This document shows positions 7,912-26,327 of a DNA stretch of 27,047 nucleotides, piece after piece. How positions within the stretch are numbered: the first letter of the stretch is position 1; every line of letters begins with the position of its first letter. The DNA is from a virus, in the IMG/VR virus record IMGVR_UViG_3300020442_002484, positions 1 to 27,047 of that record; one strand, given 5' to 3'. The notes beneath the pieces were generated by a model. It did no database searches. It was not told the DNA's origin and saw nothing but the letters and a program-made list of their open reading frames with translations. A program made the translations under genes and the position numbers.

Positions 7912-9495
7912 TTAGAATTGCAAAATAACTTTGATATCTTCTCTTTGGTTTACTGACCTAGTAATAGAGGGTCTATTATCAACATATAGTATGGTTCCAG
8001 AGTATTTTTCAACTTCTGGACTTGCTACACCCTTAATATAAGTTTGTCCCAGGTAGTATGTTTTATTATTTATGACGGTACTAATACCTGGATTCGTGTC
8101 AGTTCCGAATCCTTCATCTATGTATAAATCCTTACTACCACCGACAATTTTCAATGAACCGCCTGTTTGAAGAGTAGATGTGAATTGATTGATTGAGTAT
8201 CCATAAGTTGGATTTAATCTCTGTGTTCCGTCTGTATTGAACCCAACCAGAGATCTATCTTGCCAATATCTCAAAACACCTGTTTGAGCATCATATGAGA
8301 TAACTCTACCCACAGCAGTGACACCAGAACCAACAGTTTGCGTAATAACTGCATTTGGTTCAAATGTTGTTGATCTAAAGTCGTCTTGGTTTGGTGCTTG
8401 TCCTTTTAAGACTAAACCATATAAAGAACTAACTCTGTCATCAGTAATAATTGTATTAGATTCAAATCCCTTGGGATTTTCTACAATACCAATTCTAGCA
8501 ACAGAAGATCCAGTAACAAAGTCTGGATTTTGCTCATCATTCTCAATTCTAGAATAGATTAGAACATTAGTAGATCCAAGTTCCGAATAGATATCAGCAC
8601 CATGACCACCAGGAGGAGGAATAATTATGTCAAATGTTGGAGTCGTTGAACCAGTAGGAACATTACCACCAATTAAGTCAACACTTCCATAAGTATACCC
8701 ATTTCCGCCATTTGAAATAGTAATAGACTCTACTTTAGAATCATTGTTGATAACAATAGTGCATTCTGCTCCTGTCCCATCTCCCCTAATAGGAACCCTA
8801 GAATATGTAATGTTTGGTGGACCAACTAGGTAACCTCTATTAGTAATAGAGATTGTTTTTAATTGTCCACTAGTTGATGCATTAGTTCTTACGTTTTGAT
8901 AGTCGGCATTAGTCTCCCAGTCAACTGGAAGAGGAATAAAATTCAGAGAGTCAAATTTAATAACGTCACTAGGACTAATCGTATAAAGATATTTCCAAAT
9001 ATAACCATCACCACTAGTACCAGCAGCTCTTGGTTCTAAGTCTGTAAATAATGGTTCGTCCAGAGATGGTCTACCATTTGGGTTTTCTGGGTCAATACCA
9101 TTATTTAAGCAAATATATACTCTAAATTCACTATTTACGACATAATAGTTTGATGCATAAAGACTTGTCTTGTTAGATGGTTTAGACAAGTTATTGCGAT
9201 TTACATCATGACGATACATATCATAAATCGTCGCAGATGCCCATTGAACCTTTCTTACAACAGGTCTAATGTCATCTGCAGAGATTTTTTTCAATGCAAT
9301 CATCGTATCCCAATAAGTATTGGAATCATCGAAGCAGTCTCTTGGGGACGGAGGGGTCGTGTCCCAAGAAGCAGCAACCTCAGTGGCATTAGGGAGACCA
9401 ATAAAGGTATAGTAAGACCTATTAGCATCCCTAATCTTTTCAATGAAGTTTCTTGCGTTATTTACCCTCAGCAAGTCAGTTATAATTGCTGCCAT
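7912..9495 (-). CDS. gp8: Baseplate wedge protein gp8
   Basis: This 527-aa protein matches T4 gp8 in diagnostic places. The extreme C-terminus ILYVDNRPSITRSVNQREDI parallels the T4 ending with MIYMENRPPI. The segment SGDGYIWKYLYTISPSDVI (about residues 158-176) parallels GDGYVWEYLFEIPPDV of T4. In T4, gp8 is a dimer in each baseplate wedge that bridges gp10, gp7 and gp6 and helps shape the outer baseplate. At 527 residues it is clearly longer than the roughly 334 of T4. The extra length lies largely in the middle (about 208-440), where GYLVGPPNITY and SNGGNGYTYGSV type repeats occur, resembling repeats in both neighbouring giant proteins. It starts 30 bases after the giant gene's stop. A late-promoter-like CATAAATA stands just upstream. 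No clear Shine-Dalgarno is visible. Confidence 0.93.
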   Translation of the reverse strand: MAAIITDLLRVNNARNFIEKIRDANRSYYTFIGLPNATEVAASWDTTPPSPRDCFDDSNTYWDTMIALKKISADDIRPVVRKVQWASATIYDMYRHDVNRNNLSKPSNKTSLYASNYYVVNSEFRVYICLNNGIDPENPNGRPSLDEPLFTDLEPRAAGTSGDGYIWKYLYTISPSDVIKFDSLNFIPLPVDWETNADYQNVRTNASTSGQLKTISITNRGYLVGPPNITYSRVPIRGDGTGAECTIVINNDSKVESITISNGGNGYTYGSVDLIGGNVPTGSTTPTFDIIIPPPGGHGADIYSELGSTNVLIYSRIENDEQNPDFVTGSSVARIGIVENPKGFESNTIITDDRVSSLYGLVLKGQAPNQDDFRSTTFEPNAVITQTVGSGVTAVGRVISYDAQTGVLRYWQDRSLVGFNTDGTQRLNPTYGYSINQFTSTLQTGGSLKIVGGSKDLYIDEGFGTDTNPGISTVINNKTYYLGQTYIKGVASPEVEKYSGTILYVDNRPSITRSVNQREDIKVILQF

Positions 9496-9522: not shown

Positions 9523-9530
9523 TATTTATG
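9523..9530 (-). promoter_or_regulatory. Putative T4-like late promoter before gp8 (CATAAATA)
   Basis: On the minus strand the sequence CATAAATA matches the T4 late promoter TATAAATA at seven of eight positions and fits the NATAAATA form I recall for cyanophage late genes. It overlaps the TAA stop of the 4501-aa gene and ends 27 bases before the gp8 ATG, a spacing similar to that of the element before gp25. One identical octamer also occurs inside gp8 (8067-8074), so chance matches happen in this AT-rich DNA. Confidence 0.55.
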
Positions 9531-12500
9531 GGGAAATATAACCAAGATATTTAATTGGATTCTTTCTCCTCAATAGTGGATTAGTTCCAATACCTGCCTG
9601 AAGTCCATTATTTTGGATATTCCAGATTTGATTCTTGATTCTAACTGGAAGACCAACCTTACCCCAGGTATAGTAACCATAGAATGCTGTAGTTGCTAGA
9701 CCAACAACATTATTTGAACCTGAACTCTGAAGAGCAACAACAACAGACGTAACTGTTGTACCAAATCCAACAGTAGTTCCAAGTCCATTTATTCCTGCTG
9801 GAATTACGGACTGTTTGGTATAGTAATCAATGCATTCGTATGTCATATCCGCATGTAATGTGGATATTCCAATGACCGATCCATCTGCACTCAATGAAGT
9901 TTGTGCGGCACTAACAAAATTAGATTGAGTAACATTGAACAAGTCTCCTGTAGTGATTCCAGGAAGAGTTACATTTACACCACGTCTTATTTCAGAATCC
10001 ATGGGAATGTATAGATCAAGAACCACACCAAGACTTGTTCCAGCACCAATTACGGTTGTTCCTACCCCAACAACTAAACCATAATCCCCCTCGTAAGATA
10101 CAAATGGACATTCTTCAATTGCTCTCTTTGGTGGTGCAACAAGAGCAGGTGGAGGATTAATACTTGCAACTGTAAATTTAATTGGAGCTGCAAGTGCCCA
10201 CTTTCTAGAAGTTGTCGCTAGACCAACATTATCATAAGTATCAACAAATAATGTATCACCTACTAGATAATTGCTACCACCTTCAATAATACTGACAGAA
10301 GCAACATTAAAGTTAAGCGTACTTAACTCAATATCAGCAACTGCACCTACGCCAATACCAGTTTCACTCTTGAGTTTTGCACCTCTGAAGAAGTTGGTAT
10401 TTGTATCAACTGATGGGAATCCAGATCCTTGTTGAAGAACTGTCATGGATGACAGAGGACCGTAATAATAGTTTGTACCACCTGCACTAACTGTTGCAGA
10501 AGTTACTGAACCTCCAGCACCAATAGTTACTCCTCCAATTGCTTGTGTTCCATCTCCATATGGTTTTGCAATAGTAACTTCTGGGGCAGCAGTATATCCA
10601 TAACCTGGATTTACTACCTGAAGTCCAGTAATTGTTCCTCCAGCACCAATAACCACCGATAATCTTGCAGGTTCTAATCTATCCTGAGATACGATTTCAA
10701 TTACAGATCTATCTTGAGCACCAATACCTTCAAATGGGTTGTCAAATAGAGGTCTTAAGTCATTAACGTATACTGCGCTATCAGCAATACCAATATTACT
10801 AATAATATTTGTATTTGGATTAATTACTGGTTCATAATAAACTCTATCCTTACCGATATAATTATTATCGATAATCTTATCTACTGTTTGTTTTGTCCAA
10901 GATAGTGGTCTTTCAAACAGTTCATTTAATGTGACACCTTGACCAGCATAGTTATTAGTAATAACTTTATCTGCTGCTTTAATGTCCATAACAAGACGAT
11001 TCTCTTGTGTAAAGGTGGTATCAGTATTACTATAAAGTTGTACCTCATCACCAACTTCAACCGAAGGAAGAACGTCTACAGTACGAACGTCAATTGTTTG
11101 AGTACCAGTGTACATAAAGATTTTTGCAGTATCTCCTGTAGTGGTAAATCCTGTTATACCGCCTTTTGGTGGTTCAGTAAATCTAATGGTGCTACCACCA
11201 TTGAACTGATAACCTTCTCCAGGGGTCTGCAGAATATCGTTAACAAACACAAGAAGGTTAGACTCAAGATTAATTCCAGAGTTAGATCTTGCAAAGAATG
11301 AGATACTATCTCCGTTTACCGATAGAGGGAATAATCTTCTTTGACCATTAAAGAATGGGTCGATTTCATCAAGAACAATAAACTCACCAACGTTCCATCC
11401 AGCGAATTTAGATTGGAATACTTCATCAATAGTCAATTGGAATTCACTGTATGTCGCAAGTCCAACAAAGGTGTGTGGGAATTGCTTACCCTGTGGAGAA
11501 GGTCCAGCGAATACGGTAATTGTTGTAGAAGTGTATGAGGTAATGCCAACGTTTTGATCTGCAATATTAGTGTCTATATTTGGTCTAGGATATGCCAATA
11601 TAGCACTGTAATCATCACTTGCACATCTGAACAGGAGCGATCTGTTCGCAATAGTAACAGTGTTTGCTGTCGTCAGTGTGTGAATACCTATGGTAAGAAC
11701 AGACTCACCTGATACTGGGTCATAAGTCGCATCTGTTACTGCATAAGTATTCACACCATCAGATACTGGTTCTACTGCATTAGATGTTCTTGTTGCAAAT
11801 GTTTGAATACCAGTTGTTCCGCCAATAGCAACTGTTAATCTCTCTCCAGATCCATATCCATATCCAAAGTTATTAATTTCAAAGTTTAAAATGGTCGAAT
11901 CTTTACTTGGAACAAGATCAATAGTAGCTCCTGTACCAAACCCACTATTTACGTCACTGTAAATTAATGGAATATTATAGAGACTTGTTGGTTCATCAAA
12001 TACAACATCAAGAGGTCTTCTCAGTGTTCCACACCTCTTATACGTATGTGTATATGGCGAAGGACCAGAATTAATGATGAATGAGTAGTCATCAATAATT
12101 TTAACAATTCCAGTTCCATTTGTTGCTGGGTCTTGACCAGATGGAGAATTGTTAATTGGTCTAGGAGCAAGAATAATCTCCTCAACAATACCACCAGAAG
12201 TATAGAAAGACTCGGCAGTACTTACGCCAACATTGATTTCAAATTCATCAATACTATTGATTCTGGTGACTTGTGTTCCGCAATATGTTGGGTCACTTAC
12301 TCTTGGATGAGTAAGAATTCCAACTCCACCATCGTAAGAACATGTGAATGCCAAACCAGTAAGTGCAACATCAGTACCAACTTTTAACTTATGTCCAAAT
12401 GTTAGAGTTCCACCTTCAAGATAAGAGTGTGGAATAGTAGAAATTCCCGCATTAAATGTAAGTTGATACCAGTTTGGTGCAGAAGTTACACTAAAGGTGT

Positions 12501-15500
12501 CTCCAAGAGGAGAGTTTTGTGCATTTCCTGGGAAGATATTTGTTGTAATACCAGTTTGAACAACACCACCTGATACATATGCATGAGAAATCGAAGATAC
12601 ACCAACATTAACAGTAAAGGAAGTTGTTGTTCCGACACTATTAACATTAAAGAAATACCCCTGAGATCCATCTGGGAACTTAGTTGTTGTAAGACCAGCA
12701 GTTACCTGCCCAGCATCATTCTCAATATAAGTATGAGGAATAGTAGATACACCAACATTTAACTCAAATTTATCAGATGCAGTTACAGCAGTAACTGTAA
12801 ATGTATTTCCTTGAGTGCCATCTGGGAAAATAGTTGTTGTGATTCCAGAACCACCAGGACAACTAAATTCTAAATTATCTAATCTAATATCACTTCCAAT
12901 TCCTATAATGCCAGTAATAGGATCAGAAGTAGTAACTGTAGACAGACCAGTAACATTGTCATACTGGAACTGCGTAATAGTAAATGTTTGTCCATAACCT
13001 GTAGGACCTCCAATGGGACAACTAAAGATGAGTTCTCTCATCTTGAAATCATCAGATGCACTAAGACCGTGATCTGCAGTAGTAAATACTGTTGCTAATC
13101 CAGTAGTATTGTCATACTGGAAATCATAAACTGCAAGAGTATTGCCATATCCAACACAAGAAAGTGCTAATCCAGCAAGACTGAAGCTTCTTCCGATAGC
13201 TGTCATCGGAACAATCTTCATTGGTTCTAATGTTGTAATTGTAGCGAGACCAGTAGTATTATCATATGTAAAGTCAGATACAGTAAATGTAGATACACCT
13301 GTAGTGACTGTCATGATGCCAGTTGTGGTATCATAAAGAGCATTAGTTACATCAACTGCAGGATAGTAATCGCAGGTAAATGCAGCACCAACAACCTGAA
13401 CCTCATCCCCAAGAGAAAGGTTATGTGGGGTAGATGTTGTAACTGTCGTTATTCCAGTAATTGAACTGTATCCAATATTTGCAACTTCTCTAGGAGCATA
13501 AAATACCTGAGAATTTGTAATTGCAACACCAATAACATGTCCGTCAAGAACAGTTGCAACACCGACTGGGGTAATATTTGCTGCACCCTGGCTTGCAGTC
13601 TGAATACCCACAGATACAGTTTGTAAACCAGATCTGTAACCAGAACCACTATTACCAATCGAGATATTTGAGATAGTTCCTGCAGTAGATACAACTGCGG
13701 TTCCTCCCGCAGATACTAATGGTTGGAATCCATATCCAGCTCTAGAAGCAACACTAACAATTACACCACCTTTAGGTACTTTGTTTACATTAATATCATT
13801 ATGAAGTTCTGGATCAGTTACTTCACCATTAAATCCTAATAATAACTGCCCTCCACCTGCTTCTAACTTGTAGTCTCCTTCAATATTAGTAAGAACGTTA
13901 CCAAGTCTTTGGGGACCTTGGAAAATGTCATCAATAAGAACAATAGTATTTTGTGCAGACACATTATCAATATCATTACCCTGATACTTCAAGTAGAAAG
14001 AAGTTGTAATTCCGTTGAATTGGTCAGAGATATCATCATAAACATAGTTGTTGTCATATGCAGGAATGAATACTGATGTAAATCCTTGATTCAATGCAGA
14101 TCTTAAGAAGATTCTTCCACTAAATCTAGAACTTGTTGTTAATCCAGAGTAATCGACTTCACCAGCATTTTGTGCTGTAGTACCAAATCCAACAGGAAGA
14201 TTACCCCAAGGTCCTTCAATAAAGTGAAGATCATTATTAACTACACTATAATTACCAACTTGCTTTACAATGTTAGATCCAGAAGAATGAGATGTTGAGA
14301 TGGTTCCCATCCATCCTCTTCTAACTGTCAACTCATTGGTATCCCCATCTACAGCAGCAACAAGAACAACCTCATCATTTATCTTGAGAAGATCTCCACC
14401 AAATATAGTTGTAATTCCAGATACGCTTATAACGGTACTACCAACACCCACATTTGCAGATAATCCAGTAGTATATGCAGTTCCAACCATTGGAGATTGA
14501 ATTGTGCCATTAACTGTGATTAAAAGTCTATTGTTTGGATTTCTTGCTCTAAATAAGTGCTGAGTTCCAATACCAACTCCAGTTATTCCAACACCAATAG
14601 GATTAAACAAGAGAGCATTTGTTGCAGAAATCGCAACTCTTACCTTTTGATTATCTTGCTTAATAATTGTAAATTGAGATGGTAGCAAACTGGTAGTTCC
14701 GATTCCAGGACCAAAGTCAGTCTCAGCAATTCTAATTGCATTTGACCTATCATTATTTGGTGGAATATAGTCCACTAATTCTCCACTAACAAAGTAATGA
14801 TTTGCTATGTTTATAGTTCCTTCACCAGGACTAATTAATGTAGAATCGCTTCCATCAAATTCAATTTCAAAAATTGGTTTACCTTCAGTAAATAATTCAA
14901 AATCTCTCTTTACGCCATTAAATTGATCACTAAAGTCATCAATAGCAAGAACTCTATTGCCAATAAATTCTTGATATTTTGCCAAGAATGGTAAGTTAAA
15001 TAGAATTTCGTTAGATACTAAATCACCACTAACATCAATACTCTTTTCTCTACCAATATCAAAGTCTCTTACAGTGTTAAGATCAACAACATTTGTCAAA
15101 TCAGAGATCGCAATTAATGCATTCAGATCTTGAGAAGTAGATATACCACTAATTGTTGGATCATAAGAATCAATTACTAACTCACTAAACTTCTTGAATC
15201 CTGCTGTATGGTTAAGATTACTAACCATGGGATTCCATTTTTCAAAACTAATTGGGGATCTTACAGCATAAGAGAAGAATTGATAATAGTCATTATCATG
15301 AACTCTTTGGAAGAATCTATTGAGTTTACCAGTATCCTTTAACCATCCCTTCTTAGTGATACTATTAGATGCAATAACATACTTGGAATTAATTCCATCC
15401 ACAGATGAAATGAGACCTTTATTTTGAGAAGATTGACCAATAATTAAGTCATCAACTTCAAAAGGAATCTTTGATCTTACTCTTAAGTATTCATTTCTAA

Positions 15501-18500
15501 AGTCATATGACTGAACTACACCAGTATTTGCATCTTGTGCAACAATAATCTCACCAGTTCTAAATGAATCCTTCTCAAGTTCAATGTCAAATGATGGGAA
15601 ATATGATTCTGGCGTAACAGTTCCAAAAGAATCAAAACTATCAAAGTTTCCAGGAACTTCTCCAACCTTCAATACACTCGCCATATTGTAAGTAATCGTC
15701 GGATTGTCTCCACCAAGATCTGGATCTACTTCAGTGAGAACAAATAGTTCATAACCAAAGTCAGCAGAATTATATCCTGTTCCTTGAACACTACTATCAA
15801 TATTAGTGTTCTCAACAATAACCTTATCACCAACTTCAAAAGGATAATCTGCTACAGAATTGAATGTAACAGCAAATCCTATAGTAACATCTAGTGTTCC
15901 TGCATCAAAAGTAATTGAATCAATTCTTACACCATTTGGATTATTGATGGGTAGAATTCTTGGAGTAACATTATACAAACCTGTTGTATTTCTAATAACA
16001 GTTACTTCAGTGTCTCCAATATCATAACGAAGTGACGCTTCAGTGTTAACTCTACCTGTGAATCCGTCAAGAACAATTAATTGTGGTGGAATAAAATAGT
16101 TAACACCAGGATTAATAATTTTAATCTCTTTGAATTTAGATAGAGGTTCAATCTTGTACGTATATGGGAACTGTGCAATTGGTCTTAATGTTTTGTCTGG
16201 TGGATAATCAAACCCAATGTCAGTCAAGACTACAGTATCTGCCTTTCCGATAGTCGTACTTGCAGGAAGGAAAATTGCATTTGTACCACCAATACTAACA
16301 ATTTGAGAGACATTGGGAAGAGCAGTATAATTTCTTCCAATAGAATCTAGAGTGACTTCAGCAACAGGTCCAAGTGCAGTCAAAGAGGTTGTTGTATATG
16401 TAATTGTTGCCTCATTATCTGGATAAAGATCTCTCTCTGGAGTATTTCTTAGAGTATAATTAAATGTTGTCGAACCAATTCCTGTTGCATTTGCAGTAAC
16501 ATTAAACTTACTATTAACGATCGACAATTTATTAGAATTTTTAATATTAAACTTATCGCTAATAATCTCTAATTTTGCTGCAGACGCTCCATTGTATCTA
16601 ATAGGTTGTAAGTTATAGTACAAATTATTTGGTGTGTTATCATCAATGATTAACTCCAGTTTTGCACCAGGGTCACCAATAGTTCCAGAAGTTTTTACAT
16701 TGAATGCACCAACATTTTCTTTAGCAGTGAAGAATTCATCACTAAATTCTGAGTCAGAATATAAGAAGAAGTTAAATGCAGGAAGTGAATTTGCAATTAA
16801 AGTTTGATCAGAAAGATCAAAAATAACAGTAGAATTTCTTACACCTATAATCTCTGGATTGATTGGACTAAGTTGTCCAGGAGATTGAGTTTGAATGTCT
16901 ATAATCTGAACATCCTTCTCTGAAGAGATTACATCATAGTAGAACTCAGACAAAGATATTGTATTGTCATCTAACTTGATGACATAATACATACTAGAGT
17001 TTGTCAACCCCTGAGGAGCAGATGCAGAGTTGAAGATAACTTTTTCGCCATTTTTAAATCCATGATTTTGTATACTAATGGTATTTCTCTCAACGTTAAC
17101 CTGAGAATCAATAAAGTTTCTTGGATCAACAACCATTCGACGATTTACATCATCATATGCAATTCTGAATGTAGTTTGTATGCCAGATATAACATTTACA
17201 GTGACTAAATCCTGATCAGCAAGACCATGTGCTGTTTTTGTTGTAATAGTTGCTGTCTTTTTATAAGCGTCACCAACAATGGTAAGATCTTTATTTGTAG
17301 TGAAACTATGAATTTCTCCACTTCCATAAGTGCTTAAATCATATAGTTTTAATGGATCAGAACCAACTCCGACAAATCCACCCGTACTACCAATACCAAC
17401 TTTTTGAGTAGAGATTCCAATAAAATCAGAATCATATGCTGCAACGTAAAGTTGATCATCAGTTTCTAATGGGAATGTTGTGCTTGCAATACTTACACTT
17501 ACTCCAGTTCCCCCAGCACCAACAGAATATGTAATTAGATCATTAGTACTAAATCCATGTCCTGGTAAGTAGAACGTATTTAATCTTGGTCTAATTATTT
17601 GAGGTTGAGTAACGCCAGGATTGCTAATATACAACAATCCACTCTTATCATCAGTTTTTACAACAGCAGTCCCCTGAGTACTGTAGTAAGAACTTCTAAG
17701 AACTCCATTCTCAATTTGAGCACCCCAAACATAGATTGTTGGAGAATCATTCAGAATTAAATTCTCAGTTCCGAGAGTTCCAATTTTAAGATTATGTTGT
17801 CCAGCATTTGTAAATGCTTGGAATGAAAATCTCTGCCATTTTGAGGTTAATGTTACTTCACTGTGGTGATAGGTAAGTCCATCATCCAAAATAATGAAGA
17901 TCTTTTCTCCACCAAGATTACCTCTTAAGAATACTGATACTACATAATCATCAGCAGACAAACCAACACTAGAATATTGCAGTCCAAATCCATCTCCAGT
18001 TCCAGTTGTTGATGCAAAAGATACTTTTGCTGCTTCTAAAGATCCATCTGGAGAACTTGCATTGTAGTATTCTACGGTTCCAGTTCCTACACCAACTGTG
18101 TAGTAATTCCAATTGGTAGAAATTCCTTGAGGTACTGGATCAGAATATAAAAGTAAATTCTCTGAAGGAATAGTTACAGATTCACTAGGATCAAAGTAAT
18201 ACGTTCTATCTAACTCATATTCAGTTGATGTTGAGAATCCAGTTTTGACAGTAAACTTCCTAGTTTGTTCTACCAAAGAACTACCACTAGTGTGTATTCC
18301 AGAGGTGTTGTTAATTTGTCTCTGTACCCTAACTCTAGAATCTTGAGGATATACATTAAGAATTTTTACCAATTCATTATCAATTTCATAAAAATCATCT
18401 TCCCTCAAAGTTGGATAAGTTAGGTTGCCAGTTACATTGAAATACGTTACAATTCCAGTTCCAGAAGAATTGCCTACAGTATTTGATAGAGTCAATGTAT

Positions 18501-21500
18501 TTGTGGATACACCTATTGGATAACTGCTACCAAACTGAGTAGAAAGGATATTCAAATTTTGAATGGAAATAATATCCCCATCGCCAAATCCATGTGCAGT
18601 GCTACCAAATCCAACATATCTACCATCACTAATAGATGGTGCAAATTCGACACTTTGTAAAATTGATTCTTTATATTCAATTTTACTTACATTCTTACCA
18701 GAGAGTTTGGATATCCTTGCATAAGCACCAGAACCTCCTGTGTCTTTATTATCGAAGTAGATATTATCAGACAATGAATAATTATCACCAGGAGATACAA
18801 TATTCAGTTTTGTAACCTGACCTGGAGAAGAAGTTTCTACTTCCGTAAATCCTTCTGCAAAATCATCTGGTTGTAAGAATCCCTGATACTTCGTATAAGT
18901 ATTCAAAAGATTAAGATGACCAGTATATCTAATCCAACCAGATTCATTTATATTAACGAATAATACATTTGAGAACTGATCAAAATTATAATCAATTGGT
19001 TTAGATTTATATCTATCTCCAATTACATAAGGAAATATTGGTTTCCTATATCCATTAAGTGGTCCACTTGATTCTGGAGTTGAGTTTATTGTTGTAAAAT
19101 ATGCATAAACACCATTTGGGAATTCTGGTGTTTTGCAATATCTACCATTATGGATATCTAAGTCACCGTTACCAACAAATCTATGGTCCTCAACAAACAT
19201 TCCTGCAGGGAAAATTGCAGTAGAAGGTCTACCTGAGGGCAGAATAAGTTCATAACCACTTTCTAATCTCTTTATAGCACCACCTTCTTTATCAGCATAT
19301 CCATATGGTCCATAAATTGGATTACCATCATATGCCCAACCTACGATAGGTGAATGATATAAAGTTGCATTTGTGTCATTATCAATATCATCTCTATAGA
19401 TTGTGTTGCCATTTATGTCTAAAGAAGTAGACAATACCTTTCTTCTAAACTCCCTACCAGGATATCCATGAGTATATTGAAGTCCTTTCTCAGAAGTTAA
19501 AGCACTTGTAATTATACCGTCATCAGGATTTATTTTTTCTGCCTGAATAATTCGCTCAACATTATTAATAGTCCAATTTGTTATCTTGGCATTAAATTGT
19601 GCTCCAGAACCTGTTGATACTACGTTCAATGTTGTATCAACTTGCTTGTATCCAAATCCACCATCAATAATTACAACTTCTACTAGTACACCATTAACTA
19701 CAACTGGACTTAAAATTGCACCCGTTCCACTTCCAATAACATTAATAATTGGAGGAGAATTATACTTAGAACCTCCATTATTAACAATAACACCAATAAG
19801 TACCCCAGCAGCAGAAACAATTGGTGTTAATTGAGCACCCGAACCACTCTCAAGGGTGATCTGTGGTTGTCTGTTATAGTTTAGAACACCAGAATCTCCA
19901 TAATTTGATCCACCCTCTTTTACAGAAACTGAGAATATCTCTCCAGTAAATACTGGTTGAATTTTTGCGAAAAAGTCTTGACCAGATGTTGTTGTTATAC
20001 CAATAGGTGCCTCAAGAGCGACTGTAATTGGTCTGTAGGTAATATTATGAATTCCTGTTCCACCATCAACAAAATCAACAAATCGTCTGTTGATATAATT
20101 GTAATCAGCAGGAAGAGTGCTTCCAACTCCAACAGGAGTAGTTGCTGCTACTCTAAAATGATCTTCATCAACAACACTAATATAATATTCTTTTGAAGAA
20201 CTTAAACCAACAGGAAGAACTCCATCAGAAGAAATTCTTACAATTTCCTTATTAGTATAACCATGATTACTAAGTTCAATGGTATTATTAAAAAGATTTA
20301 TATTATTCTCGGTGAAGAATGTTGTCTTGTTGGTGTAACCAGATCCACCTGATACGACTTCAATAGAACTAATTACATTCTTTTTATTAAATGCTGATAT
20401 TTTTTGAAGACCATCTCCATAAGAAGTAAATGATATTGTATTAATACCACTAATAGCATCATCTGCATTATTATGTAATTTTATTGTAGTTGGATCTACT
20501 ACATTTACAAAGTAAAATGAGTCATCTACTAGACCACCAATTTCGGTCTGACTCTGAGAAGAATATACGACCTGCTCATAATCACGGAATTTATGATATG
20601 TACCAAATCCAATAGTATTATCACTGATATTTAAGTTTTGATATAGACTTCCTGCGTTAAAAGTTACCGAATGCGTAATTTTTGACAGATTGCATTTCGC
20701 CTCTGCAGAGTCACCATTACCACCAGAAATAGTGACCTTTGGTTCCTCAGAGTAATCAAATCCCTTATCAATAATATCAATTCTACTGAGAGATCCTCTA
20801 ACATTACAAACTGCCTTTACACCTGTACCAAAAGTAGTATTTCCAACTCCAGTATTGTCATCTATAACAATAATTGGTGGATTCACTACATCATAGTTGT
20901 TATCTCCAGGAGCAGAAACTTCAATTCCCTCGATTTCACCATAATATAAAGTATCTGAAGATTTATAATTTAATATCTCAACTCCATTAATAAACATTCC
21001 AGTATTGCCTGGAAGAGTTATTGAAGATTCTATAGATTCAATAGGTTTTGGTGCAGAAAACTTCCTAATAACATCTTGAGATCTAATAGTTCTTGATTGG
21101 AATTTAAGAAGTTCAAATTTATTATTAAATACAGTTCCAAATACCTTTACAAAAATTCCACTTCTAATATTGGATCTGGAAGTTGCTAGTCGTATTGTAG
21201 CAGCATTTACTTTATAAACAAAATATTGACCTTCTTGAATATCTAAACCAATATTATTATTGTAATTGTAATAAATTGCATCACCAGTTGAGAATGCATT
21301 TGCACCAATTACAAGATCAAATCCATCAAACTGCCCACTAAAAGTGACAGCAAGATCTTCTACAACAATAGGAGTGTTGTAGTAGTCAGGTAATGATGAT
21401 GCAACAACGTAAGTATCATCCTCATTAATATAAACATTTTGAACATTTGCTGATATAATGTTCAGTTCTGGATTGTTTACTGATTCTGTTTTCGATACAC

Positions 21501-23031
21501 CCTTTCTAATACTATACTTAACTGTGGAGGTATTAATTACGCTAGTTAAGTTAATATCAAATTCATATTTGTCTTGTACTGCAATAACAAAAACGTCATA
21601 AACATTTCCATCACTTCCAATGACACTTCCAATGTCACCAAGGGTCATAATGTGTGGATCAAATGTTCTAACTCTATACTGAGCAGCACCATTTAATTTT
21701 AATGCAATCTGAGTAATCTCATCAATTTCATACTCTGGGGTAGAGTTAATAATCCAACTAGTAGTTCTTTGGTGGTCACTATCAGCACCAAGAGAAACAA
21801 TTTCAATTTGATCTCCTGGTTGATAGTAAAAAGATTTTTCCCTATCAAACTCTAAATCACCAAGTACCCCTGTAACTTTTACTCTTATTTCCTCATCGCC
21901 AGCAATACCATATGCATAGTCTGGTGTTGTAATGTCAGCATTGAGAGGTAATGCTACAGGTGCTTCCAATCCGAAGAATTGAGTGGCACTTCTGCTCTCA
22001 TAGTCAAACTCATAACTAATACCATTATCAACACAAACTAAAGTTCCAGAATCCTGGAAACTTAATGTTGAGTCAACATCAAGGTAAGTTTGTGCAACTC
22101 CAACTGGATTAGTTACTCTAGTTTTTGGATGAACCGAGAATAAAAATGTCTCAAGTTCTGGATTGTAATCTAAACTAAGTCTGTAATAAAGATTACCATC
22201 TCTAAATAACTTTTCTACATCTGTAATTGTACCTGCTGCCTTTTGGATATTATCTGTAGCATCTTGATACAAAGTTCTATTGACCAGTAATTCTGGATCT
22301 CCAGTTACTGCTTCAACCACCAAATCTCTTGTAATTCGATAATCAGCATCCGATGGTTGAATTAAGAAATCTCTTGGTTTAATAACATCAACCTGAACAC
22401 CATAAAGAAGTTTAAATAAAACTTCAAAAGAACTATTTGCGCCTTTTGCTGAGTAAAAATCTTTTAATCTCGATAATGCAACAGATTCGTTAATTCCTTC
22501 GTAGAAATCAACATCATCAAATCCTGGAGCATACTGTTGCTTATATTTTTTAAATAATTCAACTAAAAAGTAACTATTAATATTTGATACTACAGAACCA
22601 CTTGTGTGAATACCTGCAGTAGTAACTTCAAAAGTTGGTGGTCTGGATTCTGAGGAAAAATATGAAGTTATACCTGAAAAAGATCTATTACAATTAATAA
22701 AACTAGTGTCAGTTTTAGATTCATAATGAATCAACTCATCTCCAATCTGAAGAAGACCATTCTTATCAGGAAATCCATAAGTGCTACTAACATCAACAGT
22801 ATTTGTTGAAAAACCAACTTTAGATGTAGTATTCGTAGAGAATACTAAATCAGTTAAACTATCCAGATCAGTATACTGATCAATATTATTAATAATATCT
22901 AGAGGACCACCAGGAGCCTCCATAGACTCATAGTAGTTCTCTAAAAAATTAACAAATTCTGGGTATGCTTCTCTAACAAACTGGGGAAGCTGATCTTGAA
23001 CCAGATTTTGGATGTTTACTCTTTTTTGCAT
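9526..23031 (-). CDS. Giant mosaic baseplate/tail protein in the gp7 position, 4501 aa
   Basis: It lies between gp6 and gp8, the place of T4 gp7 (about 1032 aa), but is over four times longer. The N-terminus (1-240), with QFVREAYPEFVNFLENYYES and FYSAKGANSSFEVLFKLLYG, is the conserved start I recall for this family in marine myoviruses. A second conserved block, DYYQFFSYAVRSP followed by NHTAGFKKF (about 2570-2612), marks a core in the middle. Between and after these are beta-rich inserts: HGF-type repeats (about 565-1000), GGSKY repeats (about 1030-1150), a YHYH-like domain (about 1180-1345), a lectin-like jelly roll (about 1624-1790), three D-FNG modules (about 2695-2850, 2996-3097, 3886-3980) and a YDNTTGL tandem array (about 3187-3600). 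There is no obvious catalytic domain, signal peptide or membrane segment. The start follows the gp6 stop by four bases, with AAGG about ten bases ahead. Likely a wedge initiator core that has gained host-contact modules; the wedge role is inferred from synteny. Confidence 0.85.
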   Translation of the reverse strand: MQKRVNIQNLVQDQLPQFVREAYPEFVNFLENYYESMEAPGGPLDIINNIDQYTDLDSLTDLVFSTNTTSKVGFSTNTVDVSSTYGFPDKNGLLQIGDELIHYESKTDTSFINCNRSFSGITSYFSSESRPPTFEVTTAGIHTSGSVVSNINSYFLVELFKKYKQQYAPGFDDVDFYEGINESVALSRLKDFYSAKGANSSFEVLFKLLYGVQVDVIKPRDFLIQPSDADYRITRDLVVEAVTGDPELLVNRTLYQDATDNIQKAAGTITDVEKLFRDGNLYYRLSLDYNPELETFLFSVHPKTRVTNPVGVAQTYLDVDSTLSFQDSGTLVCVDNGISYEFDYESRSATQFFGLEAPVALPLNADITTPDYAYGIAGDEEIRVKVTGVLGDLEFDREKSFYYQPGDQIEIVSLGADSDHQRTTSWIINSTPEYEIDEITQIALKLNGAAQYRVRTFDPHIMTLGDIGSVIGSDGNVYDVFVIAVQDKYEFDINLTSVINTSTVKYSIRKGVSKTESVNNPELNIISANVQNVYINEDDTYVVASSLPDYYNTPIVVEDLAVTFSGQFDGFDLVIGANAFSTGDAIYYNYNNNIGLDIQEGQYFVYKVNAATIRLATSRSNIRSGIFVKVFGTVFNNKFELLKFQSRTIRSQDVIRKFSAPKPIESIESSITLPGNTGMFINGVEILNYKSSDTLYYGEIEGIEVSAPGDNNYDVVNPPIIVIDDNTGVGNTTFGTGVKAVCNVRGSLSRIDIIDKGFDYSEEPKVTISGGNGDSAEAKCNLSKITHSVTFNAGSLYQNLNISDNTIGFGTYHKFRDYEQVVYSSQSQTEIGGLVDDSFYFVNVVDPTTIKLHNNADDAISGINTISFTSYGDGLQKISAFNKKNVISSIEVVSGGSGYTNKTTFFTENNINLFNNTIELSNHGYTNKEIVRISSDGVLPVGLSSSKEYYISVVDEDHFRVAATTPVGVGSTLPADYNYINRRFVDFVDGGTGIHNITYRPITVALEAPIGITTTSGQDFFAKIQPVFTGEIFSVSVKEGGSNYGDSGVLNYNRQPQITLESGSGAQLTPIVSAAGVLIGVIVNNGGSKYNSPPIINVIGSGTGAILSPVVVNGVLVEVVIIDGGFGYKQVDTTLNVVSTGSGAQFNAKITNWTINNVERIIQAEKINPDDGIITSALTSEKGLQYTHGYPGREFRRKVLSTSLDINGNTIYRDDIDNDTNATLYHSPIVGWAYDGNPIYGPYGYADKEGGAIKRLESGYELILPSGRPSTAIFPAGMFVEDHRFVGNGDLDIHNGRYCKTPEFPNGVYAYFTTINSTPESSGPLNGYRKPIFPYVIGDRYKSKPIDYNFDQFSNVLFVNINESGWIRYTGHLNLLNTYTKYQGFLQPDDFAEGFTEVETSSPGQVTKLNIVSPGDNYSLSDNIYFDNKDTGGSGAYARISKLSGKNVSKIEYKESILQSVEFAPSISDGRYVGFGSTAHGFGDGDIISIQNLNILSTQFGSSYPIGVSTNTLTLSNTVGNSSGTGIVTYFNVTGNLTYPTLREDDFYEIDNELVKILNVYPQDSRVRVQRQINNTSGIHTSGSSLVEQTRKFTVKTGFSTSTEYELDRTYYFDPSESVTIPSENLLLYSDPVPQGISTNWNYYTVGVGTGTVEYYNASSPDGSLEAAKVSFASTTGTGDGFGLQYSSVGLSADDYVVSVFLRGNLGGEKIFIILDDGLTYHHSEVTLTSKWQRFSFQAFTNAGQHNLKIGTLGTENLILNDSPTIYVWGAQIENGVLRSSYYSTQGTAVVKTDDKSGLLYISNPGVTQPQIIRPRLNTFYLPGHGFSTNDLITYSVGAGGTGVSVSIASTTFPLETDDQLYVAAYDSDFIGISTQKVGIGSTGGFVGVGSDPLKLYDLSTYGSGEIHSFTTNKDLTIVGDAYKKTATITTKTAHGLADQDLVTVNVISGIQTTFRIAYDDVNRRMVVDPRNFIDSQVNVERNTISIQNHGFKNGEKVIFNSASAPQGLTNSSMYYVIKLDDNTISLSEFYYDVISSEKDVQIIDIQTQSPGQLSPINPEIIGVRNSTVIFDLSDQTLIANSLPAFNFFLYSDSEFSDEFFTAKENVGAFNVKTSGTIGDPGAKLELIIDDNTPNNLYYNLQPIRYNGASAAKLEIISDKFNIKNSNKLSIVNSKFNVTANATGIGSTTFNYTLRNTPERDLYPDNEATITYTTTSLTALGPVAEVTLDSIGRNYTALPNVSQIVSIGGTNAIFLPASTTIGKADTVVLTDIGFDYPPDKTLRPIAQFPYTYKIEPLSKFKEIKIINPGVNYFIPPQLIVLDGFTGRVNTEASLRYDIGDTEVTVIRNTTGLYNVTPRILPINNPNGVRIDSITFDAGTLDVTIGFAVTFNSVADYPFEVGDKVIVENTNIDSSVQGTGYNSADFGYELFVLTEVDPDLGGDNPTITYNMASVLKVGEVPGNFDSFDSFGTVTPESYFPSFDIELEKDSFRTGEIIVAQDANTGVVQSYDFRNEYLRVRSKIPFEVDDLIIGQSSQNKGLISSVDGINSKYVIASNSITKKGWLKDTGKLNRFFQRVHDNDYYQFFSYAVRSPISFEKWNPMVSNLNHTAGFKKFSELVIDSYDPTISGISTSQDLNALIAISDLTNVVDLNTVRDFDIGREKSIDVSGDLVSNEILFNLPFLAKYQEFIGNRVLAIDDFSDQFNGVKRDFELFTEGKPIFEIEFDGSDSTLISPGEGTINIANHYFVSGELVDYIPPNNDRSNAIRIAETDFGPGIGTTSLLPSQFTIIKQDNQKVRVAISATNALLFNPIGVGITGVGIGTQHLFRARNPNNRLLITVNGTIQSPMVGTAYTTGLSANVGVGSTVISVSGITTIFGGDLLKINDEVVLVAAVDGDTNELTVRRGWMGTISTSHSSGSNIVKQVGNYSVVNNDLHFIEGPWGNLPVGFGTTAQNAGEVDYSGLTTSSRFSGRIFLRSALNQGFTSVFIPAYDNNYVYDDISDQFNGITTSFYLKYQGNDIDNVSAQNTIVLIDDIFQGPQRLGNVLTNIEGDYKLEAGGGQLLLGFNGEVTDPELHNDINVNKVPKGGVIVSVASRAGYGFQPLVSAGGTAVVSTAGTISNISIGNSGSGYRSGLQTVSVGIQTASQGAANITPVGVATVLDGHVIGVAITNSQVFYAPREVANIGYSSITGITTVTTSTPHNLSLGDEVQVVGAAFTCDYYPAVDVTNALYDTTTGIMTVTTGVSTFTVSDFTYDNTTGLATITTLEPMKIVPMTAIGRSFSLAGLALSCVGYGNTLAVYDFQYDNTTGLATVFTTADHGLSASDDFKMRELIFSCPIGGPTGYGQTFTITQFQYDNVTGLSTVTTSDPITGIIGIGSDIRLDNLEFSCPGGSGITTTIFPDGTQGNTFTVTAVTASDKFELNVGVSTIPHTYIENDAGQVTAGLTTTKFPDGSQGYFFNVNSVGTTTSFTVNVGVSSISHAYVSGGVVQTGITTNIFPGNAQNSPLGDTFSVTSAPNWYQLTFNAGISTIPHSYLEGGTLTFGHKLKVGTDVALTGLAFTCSYDGGVGILTHPRVSDPTYCGTQVTRINSIDEFEINVGVSTAESFYTSGGIVEEIILAPRPINNSPSGQDPATNGTGIVKIIDDYSFIINSGPSPYTHTYKRCGTLRRPLDVVFDEPTSLYNIPLIYSDVNSGFGTGATIDLVPSKDSTILNFEINNFGYGYGSGERLTVAIGGTTGIQTFATRTSNAVEPVSDGVNTYAVTDATYDPVSGESVLTIGIHTLTTANTVTIANRSLLFRCASDDYSAILAYPRPNIDTNIADQNVGITSYTSTTITVFAGPSPQGKQFPHTFVGLATYSEFQLTIDEVFQSKFAGWNVGEFIVLDEIDPFFNGQRRLFPLSVNGDSISFFARSNSGINLESNLLVFVNDILQTPGEGYQFNGGSTIRFTEPPKGGITGFTTTGDTAKIFMYTGTQTIDVRTVDVLPSVEVGDEVQLYSNTDTTFTQENRLVMDIKAADKVITNNYAGQGVTLNELFERPLSWTKQTVDKIIDNNYIGKDRVYYEPVINPNTNIISNIGIADSAVYVNDLRPLFDNPFEGIGAQDRSVIEIVSQDRLEPARLSVVIGAGGTITGLQVVNPGYGYTAAPEVTIAKPYGDGTQAIGGVTIGAGGSVTSATVSAGGTNYYYGPLSSMTVLQQGSGFPSVDTNTNFFRGAKLKSETGIGVGAVADIELSTLNFNVASVSIIEGGSNYLVGDTLFVDTYDNVGLATTSRKWALAAPIKFTVASINPPPALVAPPKRAIEECPFVSYEGDYGLVVGVGTTVIGAGTSLGVVLDLYIPMDSEIRRGVNVTLPGITTGDLFNVTQSNFVSAAQTSLSADGSVIGISTLHADMTYECIDYYTKQSVIPAGINGLGTTVGFGTTVTSVVVALQSSGSNNVVGLATTAFYGYYTWGKVGLPVRIKNQIWNIQNNGLQAGIGTNPLLRRKNPIKYLGYISP
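12190..13476 (-). repeat. Tandem protein repeat array inside the 4501-aa gene (YDNTTGL and ELNVGVST units)
   Basis: Five successive units of roughly 25-50 residues begin with or contain a Y-D-N-T-T-G-L-A-T-V type strand: near 13470, 13340, 13272, 13122 and 12969. Several continue to a short conserved L-x-F-S/T-C motif. Three anchor sites are also conserved at DNA level (12947-12969, 13100-13122 and 13250-13272), with offsets of 153 and 150 bases. They pass into a second series with ELNVGVSTIPHTY, TVNVGVSSISHAY and FNAGISTIPHSY strands and FPDG-QG turns (about 12230-12840). A diverged extra unit (TYDPVSGESVLTIG) sits at about 11640-11740. The array looks like a stalk of beta modules made by duplication. 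Confidence 0.8.
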
Positions 23032-23035
23032 GTCT

Positions 23036-24943
23036 TTATAACCTTACGTATTCCCCGTTTAAGTAGCTAGATGTTACTATGTATTGAGATCCAGAGAGAT
23101 CAATTCCAGAGGTAATTGTGTCGGATACCATCTTGACCGAAGAACTTGTTGTATCAAGTTGTAAGTAAAGATCTTGAAGACCAATAATATCATTTGACTT
23201 TGGAATCACAGATACTTCCATAATGTTGTCCCCAAACTTGACTTTAGATGTATTGGTAAAATTAAGAGCACTTAATTTAATCTCACCTCTTACATAATCA
23301 ATAGATCCAACATTTTGCCTTACAATGATTGGTTGGTTCTTTGCATTTAGTTTGAACATAAACACATTACCAGTAGAACCATCAGCATTAGGAGTATCGC
23401 TAAAATAGACTGTTCCAGTTATACCTTCAATTTGAACTCCACTTGTTTTGAAATTGTATCCACTTTGATTCTTGATATGAATCTGATTACCAAAACAAAT
23501 TTCGTATTCACTGAATACACCAGTGACTATTTTATTATCGCGTCTAATATTGATGGTAGTGATATTAGACGTGATTGCAGATGAAGTATCATCAATCAGT
23601 TTGAGGAACTTACTATATCTAAACCTAGAACCATACCTATTTAACTCATCAGAACTAGCGTACTTTTCAATATTTTTTGTAACCTGATCTCTTACAAAGT
23701 CTGCATTACCTTGATTTTGATTATAGTATACGTTTGTGTTATATTCGATGTAAAGATACTTAAGATCAATAAATTCAGGAATAATTCCTGCTACAGCATA
23801 CTTTCTCAATAATGTTTTAATGTTATCCTTTACGATAGCAGGTAAATAAGATCCATTTTGAGGTTTTACTGTAATAAAGACTTTTCCATACTTTGGAGGA
23901 GTCAATTCTTCTCCACCAAAGACAGATACCGATTCTGCTTCTGGATAGATAAGAGGAATCAATGCCTCATAGTCACCAGCAGTTACTGCTCTATTTTGAG
24001 ATGCGTATACCCTAGGTGCTAACTTCTTAATTGACTGCACAGACTCAATAGGAGCGCCGTATGCGCTCGCTTCCATCGTCTCTACGAGGGGTGAAGTTAC
24101 TTTTAGGGGTGATCCATTATTATCGAAGAATCTACCCGTAAAATTGAATTTATTAATGCCATTTGCACGCTCACCGTTAGTAACAACATAGTTAACTACG
24201 ATGTAATTGTTATTTTGCAGTTTACTGCCAAAACTACCATCACCAAATATCAACTCATACCTAGAATCGGAGATTTCATTCAAGAAAAATACATCATCTG
24301 TTGATTTTACATTAGTTAAGTTGTCTGCAAGTTTATATGTTCTTCTAATATTGCTGTTTCTACTTTCTCTAACCTCAACCCTAATAAGTTTAGTGTCAAT
24401 TCTGGGGTTTTGGAGAATAAATCTTTGATTTTTATTATTACTATCAACGGTAAAGGTGTTTTGAACATAAGCACCTTCAAAGACCTCAACATTAGTAAAA
24501 ACTGCTTGTTGAGATGATACAGGAACGGTGATATCTTCGGGTACGGAGTAAATATAGTTAGTTCCCCCAAAGTTCACCGCAGAGGTCGCTACAATGCCCT
24601 TCCTGAGGGTCACAGACACGGGAGAGGTGGCAAATGAAGTCAGGTCCAGGAAGAAACTAATAACGCCTCTTGACGCTGTTACCGACCTTGGGATGTATCC
24701 TAGGTTGCGTGCTAGTGATACAACATTTTCTCTTAAAGTCGCACCATCAAGGAAGACCTCATTGGTCAACATGTTCGCATTATACGAACTAATGTAGGTA
24801 TTGTACGCTAAAGTATCTAAAAGTATTGAAAAGTTAGACCCTTCAAAATCATAGTCAGTAAAACTACCATCTGCTCGTAGATAGCTCTTTATCGACTCTT
24901 TAATTTCTGCAAAGTCTAAACTTGCTACGTTTACTAATGACAT
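23036..24943 (-). CDS. gp6: Baseplate wedge protein gp6 (baseplate J-like)
   Basis: A 635-aa protein, close to the roughly 660 of T4 gp6. The N-terminus reads as the family usually does: a short helix, FTDYDFEGSNFSILLDTLAYNTYI, then LGYIPRSVTASRG. A baseplate J-like core carries the hallmark LIFGDGSFGSKLQNNNYIVV (about residues 230-250) with NG...NGINKF shortly after, and YPEAESVSVFGGEELTPPKY (about 327-347), then KVFITVKP. In T4, gp6 forms the dimeric ring around the hub that holds six wedges together and rearranges on contraction. Its ATG follows the TAA of gp25 with no gap, and the next gene begins four bases after its own stop, so the genes are probably translationally coupled. No anomalies are seen. 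Confidence 0.95.
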   Translation of the reverse strand: MSLVNVASLDFAEIKESIKSYLRADGSFTDYDFEGSNFSILLDTLAYNTYISSYNANMLTNEVFLDGATLRENVVSLARNLGYIPRSVTASRGVISFFLDLTSFATSPVSVTLRKGIVATSAVNFGGTNYIYSVPEDITVPVSSQQAVFTNVEVFEGAYVQNTFTVDSNNKNQRFILQNPRIDTKLIRVEVRESRNSNIRRTYKLADNLTNVKSTDDVFFLNEISDSRYELIFGDGSFGSKLQNNNYIVVNYVVTNGERANGINKFNFTGRFFDNNGSPLKVTSPLVETMEASAYGAPIESVQSIKKLAPRVYASQNRAVTAGDYEALIPLIYPEAESVSVFGGEELTPPKYGKVFITVKPQNGSYLPAIVKDNIKTLLRKYAVAGIIPEFIDLKYLYIEYNTNVYYNQNQGNADFVRDQVTKNIEKYASSDELNRYGSRFRYSKFLKLIDDTSSAITSNITTINIRRDNKIVTGVFSEYEICFGNQIHIKNQSGYNFKTSGVQIEGITGTVYFSDTPNADGSTGNVFMFKLNAKNQPIIVRQNVGSIDYVRGEIKLSALNFTNTSKVKFGDNIMEVSVIPKSNDIIGLQDLYLQLDTTSSSVKMVSDTITSGIDLSGSQYIVTSSYLNGEYVRL

Positions 24944-25345
24944 TTATCTTGTTGGCAGTAATACAAACTGTAATTGTTGGGGTTGTGCATCAATACCAAT
25001 GATAAAATATTTTACTGTAATATCCATTTGACCCTCATCGTAGTTCGGGGTCACAATAACTTCATTTAAATCAACTCTTGGTTCATTGTTTTTAATAACT
25101 GCTACGATTTCATCCTTTAGTGCTCTAGCAGTAAAGAAGTCGATGTTCTCAAACAACAAACGATTAACACCACACCCCAAACTGGGATTAAAGAACCTTT
25201 CCCCCTGTGTAGTTAAGACCAAATTTTGGACAGAGCGTGATATTGCATACTCATTTCTTAAAGAAAGTAAGTCTCTTGTCAAAGGACTACGCTTTAACGT
25301 GAGACTTACATCTTTAAAACCTTGACTGACACGCTCTAAGGGCAT
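24944..25345 (-). CDS. gp25: Baseplate wedge protein gp25 (GPW/gp25 family)
   Basis: At 133 residues this matches the size of T4 gp25 (132). It has the family pattern: SRSVQNLVLTTQGERFFNP (about 36-54) leading to LGCGVNRLLFE (57-67), the diagnostic EPRVDL (88-93) and a closing beta strand MDITVKYFI. In T4, gp25 is a wedge component that contacts gp6 and gp53 and resembles the lysozyme-free sheath-initiator of other contractile systems. The start at 25345 gives the expected length; no Shine-Dalgarno is obvious. Upstream lie a late-promoter-like element and an inverted repeat, so this could be the head of a baseplate transcription unit running leftward through gp6 and beyond. Confidence 0.96.
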   Translation of the reverse strand: MPLERVSQGFKDVSLTLKRSPLTRDLLSLRNEYAISRSVQNLVLTTQGERFFNPSLGCGVNRLLFENIDFFTARALKDEIVAVIKNNEPRVDLNEVIVTPNYDEGQMDITVKYFIIGIDAQPQQLQFVLLPTR

Positions 25346-25658: not shown

Positions 25659-26327
25659 CTATCCCTGGTTTTCTTCGTTTTTGCGCTCTTTTGCTGTTTT
25701 CCAGAAATATTCATCCTCTCGACCCATGCCAAGACGCTCAAAACCGTTCTCGACTGAGTAAAATTCCGTAGAAACCTTGAAATCTGGCATTTTTGGTTCA
25801 ACAGGAGTCAAACTATTGTCAAAAATACGCATTCTGTTGTTTGGATAGAGTGCATATTGACCATTATTCAACTCAATTAGGTTATGTGACTTGTGTTCAG
25901 CAGGATTTTCGCTTGTTGCATAGTCAATAACGTCTGGATCTTGATGATAGTTGTCTATTGTACAGATATATGTGCCTTTTTGTATGCCATGATCTCTAGT
26001 ATATAGTTCAAAATCCATAGATCCAATGAATTGTTTTTGAATCGATACAACTCCATAGTCCATACAGTTCCAAAACTGTAGATTTGGGAGATCCATATCA
26101 GGATCAGGAAGTTCTGGCTCCGAGAGAAACGCGCTGATAGGCAACTTATCGTACATTGCAGCATACTCTGGTAAGTATGTCTCAAAATAAAAAGCACGCC
26201 CAGGAATCGATTTACACGATACCCAGACGCCTTTAACAAATTCACCGTGACCAGATTGGTGGTCGGTAAGATATTCTTTACGTACCCAAACCTCAACAGC
26301 AGGAAGATTGCAGATTAACGCTGCCAT
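25659..26327 (-). CDS. Conserved-looking phage protein of unknown function (222 aa)
   Basis: The protein begins MAALICNLPAVEVWVRKEYL and continues with HGEFVKGVWVSCKSIPGRAF and YETYLPEYAAMYDKLP-like text. The middle has FWNCMDYGVVSIQKQFIGSM, and later NGQYALYPNNRMRIFDNSL. The C-terminal 40 residues are charged (GREDEYFWKTAKERKNEENQ). The composition is that of a soluble globular alpha/beta protein. I recall similar proteins as conserved hypotheticals in T4-like cyanophages, next to baseplate genes, but know no function. No Shine-Dalgarno is evident. A small hairpin ends three bases before the ATG, and a late-promoter-like AGTAAATA lies 22 bases upstream, so it may have its own late promoter. 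Confidence 0.85.
   Translation of the reverse strand: MAALICNLPAVEVWVRKEYLTDHQSGHGEFVKGVWVSCKSIPGRAFYFETYLPEYAAMYDKLPISAFLSEPELPDPDMDLPNLQFWNCMDYGVVSIQKQFIGSMDFELYTRDHGIQKGTYICTIDNYHQDPDVIDYATSENPAEHKSHNLIELNNGQYALYPNNRMRIFDNSLTPVEPKMPDFKVSTEFYSVENGFERLGMGREDEYFWKTAKERKNEENQG

Follow-up and report, generated by a model that had tools for sequence, protein, structure and literature searches.

In phage T4, the baseplate wedge protein gp7 is monomeric, is present in six copies per tail and forms the wedge together with gp6 (PMC3004832). The (gp6)2-gp7 heterotrimer, six per baseplate, is known for both T4 and the Vibrio phage XM1 (PMC3004832, PMC10457771). In the gp7 orthologue of XM1, two unresolved regions are embedded in the tail-spike density and bind the spikes (PMC10457771). 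A different picture has been published for the marine relatives: T4 gp7 was reported to be absent from cyanomyophages and pelagimyophages, where it is apparently replaced by VrlC (PMC7029224), and gp7 was placed among the non-cyanophage core genes (PMC3037559). Contrary to both reports, GenBank cyanophage records name a gene gp7.

We analyzed a 27-kb virus record (the window), whose minus strand carries an ORF of 4,501 aa, here called X; residue numbers below are those of X and nucleotide positions are those of the window. In the ORF list of the window, X has an ATG start and is a single open frame with zero internal stops. Pfam and PHROG matches gave the minus-strand gene order gp25, gp6, X, gp8 and a VrlC/DUF4815-type protein, and X therefore has one feature of the gp7 wedge family, the gene slot between gp6 and gp8. 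The genes of this region are as follows:

24944..25345, minus strand: gp25 (PF04965)
23036..24943, minus strand: gp6, the presumed wedge partner (three gp6 domains, PF21379, PF21387 and PF21871)
9526..23031, minus strand: X, giant gp7 (baseplate wedge) gene, 4,501 aa, about 487 kDa
7912..9495, minus strand: gp8 (PF09215 and phrog_438)
250..7905, minus strand: VrlC-like protein, 2,551 aa (PF16075, DUF4815; phrog_358)

A preliminary description of this DNA had proposed a 13.5-kb gene in the gp7 slot. This was borne out by the 4,501-aa ORF on the minus strand between gp6 and gp8 and by its colinear relatives elsewhere. Such relatives are present in independent metagenome contigs, the nearest being ∼60–95% identical over nearly the full length, so the length of X is not an assembly artefact. 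Near-identical DNA was absent from the isolates searched, where only a match of 41–56 bases inside the X gene was observed.

The VrlC-like gene lies in the position that VrlC has in the phages S-SM2 and P-HM1. Both gp7 and a VrlC-like protein are encoded in the window, close together, and the published claim of cyanophages without gp7 looks wrong. A control profile comparison did not find the gp7 core in the VrlC-like neighbour; a 14-bit match of the N-terminal profile in this protein came from a shared beta module and not from the core. The VrlC-like protein also has a proline-rich low-complexity linker of ∼60 residues (poly-P and then PPR repeats) and one module in common with X 4128–4268. 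Just upstream of gp25, positions 25659–26327 encode a PHROG 3704 'ferredoxin' protein, which has no Pfam or NCBIfam match and whose relatives in related phages are annotated as PurM or ferredoxin.

Sequence and structure comparisons of X, described below, led us to divide it into putative core pieces and added modules:

22852..23022, minus strand: core piece 1 (X 4–60), N-terminal helices, the counterpart of the gp7 core-bundle helices (PF23786; compact-orthologue alignment)
22561..22851, minus strand: insert 1 (X 61–157), a beta module that separates core piece 1 from core piece 2 and is seen again elsewhere in X and in the VrlC-like neighbour
22162..22485, minus strand: core piece 2 (X 183–290), DFYsxKGxxxSFxxLFKxLYgxxV helices and the first part of a gp7 domain-V-like fold (hhalign; PDB profile search)
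21922..22134, minus strand: beta-barrel inserted into the domain-V-like fold (X 300–370; VIA-align)
21841..21915, minus strand: remaining strands of the domain-V-like fold, approximate (X 373–397; VIA-align of X 230–397 on T4 gp7 761–849)
15550..21840, minus strand: insert 2 (X 398–2494), about 2,100 aa of beta-rich modules between core pieces 2 and 3, without a core match; orthologues have 10–390 aa here
19084..19371, minus strand: YHYH domain inside insert 2 (X 1221–1316; PF14240, 84.6 bits, cut-off 25)
17659..18165, minus strand: head-spike-fibre-type domain inside insert 2 (X 1623–1791; NF048003)
15157..15549, minus strand: core piece 3 (X 2495–2625), a small beta domain and the segment YYxxFSYxxxSxxxxxxWxxxVxxxxHxxGF (family alignments; compact orthologues)
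9529..15156, minus strand: appended, beta-rich C-terminal arm (X 2626–4501), a separate ORF in phage B23
12052..13299, minus strand: tail-fibre-type module cassette inside the C-terminal arm (X 3245–3660; phrog_17885, tail fiber protein)

The first block of X is a gp7 homologue. When a profile of X 1–300 and its relatives was compared by hhalign with seven T4-type gp7s, X 183–288 matched T4 gp7 725–814 with 96.6% probability (E 5e-10). This stretch of T4 comprises the KG-helix segment and the start of domain V; in a shuffling test with seven T4-type gp7s, the match score was reached in 0 of 500 shuffles. Other 300-aa slices of X gave at most 0.4% probability against the gp7 profile, except the slice with the middle block (6%). 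Against all PDB sequences, the first-block profile had only two significant matches, both T4-type gp7s (E 5.8e-6 and 4.9e-5; the next was at 0.033). The AF2 model of X 1–500 was of moderate quality (mean pLDDT 67), and its best PDB match by Foldseek was again a T4-type gp7 (9f4a, E 7e-4). In VIA alignments, X 230–397 was superimposed on T4 gp7 761–849, which falls largely within Pfam gp7 domain V (766–861), with Z of 8.1 and 8.4 and rmsd of 3.4–4.7 Å; a Z of ∼8 is close to the level of unrelated folds, hence the superposition backs the sequence evidence and is insufficient alone.

At the extreme N terminus, PF23786 (Baseplate_wedge) scored 31.3 bits against a cut-off of 27, with the best stretch at X 6–37, and helices are visible at X 4–60 in the AF2 model at low confidence. 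The Pfam search gave no direct match of PF21428 (Gp7_helical) in X. However, the compact orthologues described below align at X 4–60, and the same orthologues align to T4 gp7 from residue 633 on, so that the N-terminal core-bundle helices of X are bridged to T4 633–824 through two of them, those of phages Moby and ACP17. The identification of X as a gp7 orthologue, which the preliminary description had drawn from gene order, is thus supported by hhalign, the PDB profile search, Foldseek and PF23786.

T4 gp7 (1,032 aa) shares with X the slot between gp6 and gp8 and the core, which matches T4 725–814 strongly and 861–889 weakly, whereas its N-terminal 640 aa and domain VI (920–1012) were not found in X. 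Neither domain VI (PF21456) nor the N-terminal fn3-type domain matched X at E≤0.1, and neither matched the compact orthologues at E≤0.01. As these two domains are missing from the compact orthologues too, they do not define the broad gp7 family.

These orthologues are shorter proteins of other phages. Stenotrophomonas phage Moby and Acidovorax phage ACP17 have proteins of 503 and 482 aa, respectively, in the gp6–gp8 slot, followed in each case by gp8 and a VrlC-type gene. The first block matches at 6–186 of the Moby protein and 6–175 of that of ACP17, and the middle block at 375–465 and 378–456; none of these scores was reached in 500 shuffles. A joint profile of the two proteins matched T4 gp7 at 633–824, from the helical domain onward (E 1.4e-5). 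Both blocks are also present in the freshwater Synechococcus phage BUCT-ZZ01 (607 aa) and the Methylophilales phage Melnitz (896 aa), and, with lower scores, in Vibrio phage K441 (335 aa). In Salmonella phage SJ2 (284 aa) and Rhizobium phage Y68 (867 aa), the first block matches and the middle-block matches are weak. PHROG matches agree with both blocks in the compact orthologues. The same-position protein of Campylobacter phage F365 (518 aa) was matched by neither core profile and was left out. The Moby (10788–12299) and ACP17 (4001–5449) proteins are at present called 'hypothetical' and could be annotated as compact gp7 orthologues.

The genes of the compact gp7s (Moby gp112, ACP17 gp79, BUCT-ZZ01 and Melnitz gp161) and of X all follow gp6, and their products have the two core blocks in identical order. 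They differ in that the compact proteins, most of which are annotated 'hypothetical protein', are 5–9 times shorter and have inserts of 140–250 aa. The gap between the blocks forms a series: ∼10 aa in K441, 20 in SJ2, 47 in T4, 142 in BUCT-ZZ01, 189 in Moby, 203 in ACP17, 251 in Melnitz, 393 in Y68 and ∼2,290 in X. The chain after the second block likewise varies from 4 aa in SJ2 and a few tens in Moby and ACP17 to ∼210–225 in BUCT-ZZ01 and Melnitz and ∼1,880 in X. Since both blocks occur within single orthologues of 335–896 aa, several of them in the gp6–gp8 slot, the core of X is split. It appears from these alignments to be cut in two by about 2,200 aa of added beta-rich modules, with ∼1,880 aa more after it.

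The middle block is the less direct part of this assignment. X 2585–2613 matched T4 gp7 861–889, just after domain V, only weakly (E 0.005–0.05), and 6 of 500 shuffles reached the T4 score; in the compact orthologues, the YY..W..V..HPxGF segment is clear (0 of 500 shuffles). A PDB profile search with this block gave zero matches, and we make no claim for the fold of the middle core, as the AF2 model of X 2420–2740 was unusable (pLDDT 36). The direct T4 comparison is too weak by itself, and it is by sequence comparison with the compact intermediates that we assign the middle block as the next segment of the gp7 core.

The preliminary description had placed conserved blocks at about 1–240 and 2540–2720, in good agreement with our finding that X 201–300 and 2501–2700 are among its best-conserved stretches. 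At E≤1e-5, X 1–240 matches 466 phage records, nearly all from cyanophages and mostly labelled 'baseplate wedge initiator' or gp7, and the middle block matches 426. The C-terminal 150 residues, which had been listed with these blocks for comparison with T4 gp7, are not gp7-like and lie outside the conserved core, and the last 183 aa match only four phage records at E≤1e-5. Of the checks proposed then, the profile comparison with T4 gp7 was strong for X 183–288 and weak for the middle block when made directly, and structure prediction gave a T4-type gp7 as the Foldseek top match for X 1–500 and nothing usable for the middle block.

As a gp7 orthologue from a marine phage of the Kyanoviridae type, X is not exceptional. 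The giant gp7 gene itself is already known: hundreds of cyanophage records carry colinear relatives. PHROG 2885 (4,179 positions, 'baseplate wedge subunit') matches X with 2,803 bits in four stretches. Giant gp7s with the same gene order and similar size are present in P-SSM2 (5,195 aa), P-HM1 (4,446), P-TIM68 (4,307), S-SM2 (4,156), Bellamy (4,067), SynMITS9220M01 (4,067) and S-B05 (4,024). X belongs with the Kyanoviridae gp7s of PHROG 2885 (P-SSM2, S-SM2, Bellamy and P-TIM68), which share with it the slot, the size class of 4,000–5,200 aa and colinear sequence. Their identity to X in the N-terminal block is about 38–48%, and the head-spike-fibre domain at X 1623–1791 is missing from the isolate gp7s compared. 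In the literature searched, which excluded most subscription journals, we found no earlier description of the split-core build, of where the insertions interrupt the gp7 core or of the compact orthologue series from which this can be read, and no priority is claimed.

Next, we considered the added modules. That a core had been expanded by modules, some of fibre type, holds: the gp7 core lies within the named blocks, and YHYH, NF048003 and phrog_17885 match in the rest. The description of the sequence as repeat-rich is mildly true, as blastp self-comparison of X gave no internal repeats at E 1e-3 and phmmer detected divergent repeated modules. X has no collagen-type GXY runs, which are characteristic of some trimeric fibres. 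The NCBIfam profile NF048003, of the GTA head-spike fibre family, matched X 1623–1791 with 57.6 bits (cut-off 36) over positions 6–179 of 182. The head spike fibre of RcGTA, as distinct from the X module, has been reported to bind capsular polysaccharide (PMC10218006). This stretch is skipped in the blastp alignments of X to the gp7s of S-SM2, Bellamy, SynMITS9220M01, P-TIM68, P-SSM2 and B23, and is present in the nearest metagenome contigs. An unrelated podovirus has the domain in a protein of 609 aa, and cyanophage S-TIM54 has it in a virion protein of 1,026 aa; the domain is therefore common to unrelated virion proteins.

Within the C-terminal arm, X 3260–3600 (12232–13251) was compared with IMGVR_UViG_3300021356_000072. 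Third-base identity to this metagenome contig at conserved codons was 77% in the stretch and 58% in the rest of the gene (Fisher p 2.6e-11; the stretch was picked after its high identity was seen), which is a sign of recent recombination, although stronger codon constraint could also explain it. For the head-spike domain and the 3260–3600 cassette, these comparisons support a piecemeal gain and swapping of modules. Across cyanophages, the added sequence is for the most part colinear and conserved, and a structural role would also be compatible with this. In phage B23 (20004–31783), gp7 is present as two ORFs of 2,845 and 1,081 aa, which overlap by ATGA at a boundary between modules that closely follows the core. 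The second ORF starts at the position equivalent to X 2677, so the C-terminal arm may apparently also exist as a protein of its own. In phage S-SKS1 (19974–32366), the gp7 region is divided among four overlapping frames, which together align with X from end to end; the breaks are probably frameshifts in the record, which leave part of the gene unannotated.

From these data we propose that X is a three-piece gp7 wedge core whose additions are covalent arms that build the outer baseplate and present carbohydrate-binding-type modules to the cell; we put the probability of this reading as a whole at roughly 65%. The three short core pieces (X 4–60; 183–290 with ∼373–397; and ∼2495–2625) would come together as the wedge core, and this core, by its homology to gp7, would pack with two gp6-type subunits as in T4 and XM1. 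Comparison with orthologues of 284–900 aa places all the other sequence of X at three points of addition: the first separates pieces 1 and 2, the second, of about 2,100 aa, separates pieces 2 and 3, and the third, of about 1,880 aa, follows piece 3. The larger two most likely extend from the wedge as covalent arms located at the rim of the baseplate; each gp7 would contribute one set, giving six sets per baseplate if the copy number is as in T4. Six X chains of 487 kDa each amount to 2.9 MDa. The arms would then build the outer baseplate and carry the carbohydrate-binding-type modules toward the cell surface. Receptor binding by these modules is plausible, and the six-copy receptor-binding apparatus suggested in the preliminary description may be envisaged from the T4 copy number and the module identities. 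A parallel is gp17 of Vibrio phage XM1 (242 aa), a T4 gp7 orthologue whose unresolved regions carry the host-binding spikes; we liken it to X by description, not by sequence, and the XM1 spikes are separate proteins, whereas the additions of X are fused into gp7.

It is also conceivable, but in our judgement rather unlikely, that the gp7 core is real and the additions are purely structural, forming a thick outer baseplate with docking sites for separate fibres in place of T4 gp9–gp12 and making no receptor contact. The colinear conservation of most inserts would agree with this, as would the XM1 gp7 orthologue, which holds separate spikes; moreover, PMC3037559 gives gp7, gp10 and gp12 for the non-cyanophage core only, so that other parts must build the periphery. 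However, head-spike-fibre and YHYH domains are built into X itself, and modules have been gained, lost or recombined, a behaviour more typical of host-contacting parts. It is because of these module identities and this turnover that we put the receptor-facing reading ahead of the structural one.

Two further explanations would deny X a gp7 core or its integrity. X might be a fibre or adhesin that has only its location between gp6 and gp8 in common with gp7, as most of its length consists of beta-rich modules, some of them common to fibre-type proteins. The preliminary description had likewise allowed for no gp7-like fold anywhere, but profile, PDB and fold comparisons all place a gp7 core in X and the compact orthologues carry this core in the same slot, which makes the explanation very improbable. 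Still harder to sustain is a chimera or assembly error joining separate genes. The two ORFs of B23 and the four frames of S-SKS1 could be read in its favour; against it, unbroken colinear relatives exist in independent isolates and contigs, and the S-SKS1 pieces, aligning end to end with X and mostly without a suitable start codon, look like frameshifts.

Few genes of these very abundant marine phages are larger than the giant gp7 genes, and around a single conserved core the length of gp7 varies about 18-fold, from 284 to 5,195 aa. Recognition of the T4 core in separated pieces provides a domain map for reading cyanophage baseplates, and X 1221–1316, 1623–1791 and 3245–3660 are named candidate host-binding modules. 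We tentatively suggest, as an idea that may well prove wrong, that the cyanophage gp7 is a covalent modular host-recognition platform, in which the core is a scaffold that tolerates insertions, and lectin-like modules are acquired and exchanged within one chain. If this is true, separate tail fibres would not be the sole determinants of host range, and the baseplate protein gp7 would have a share in it.
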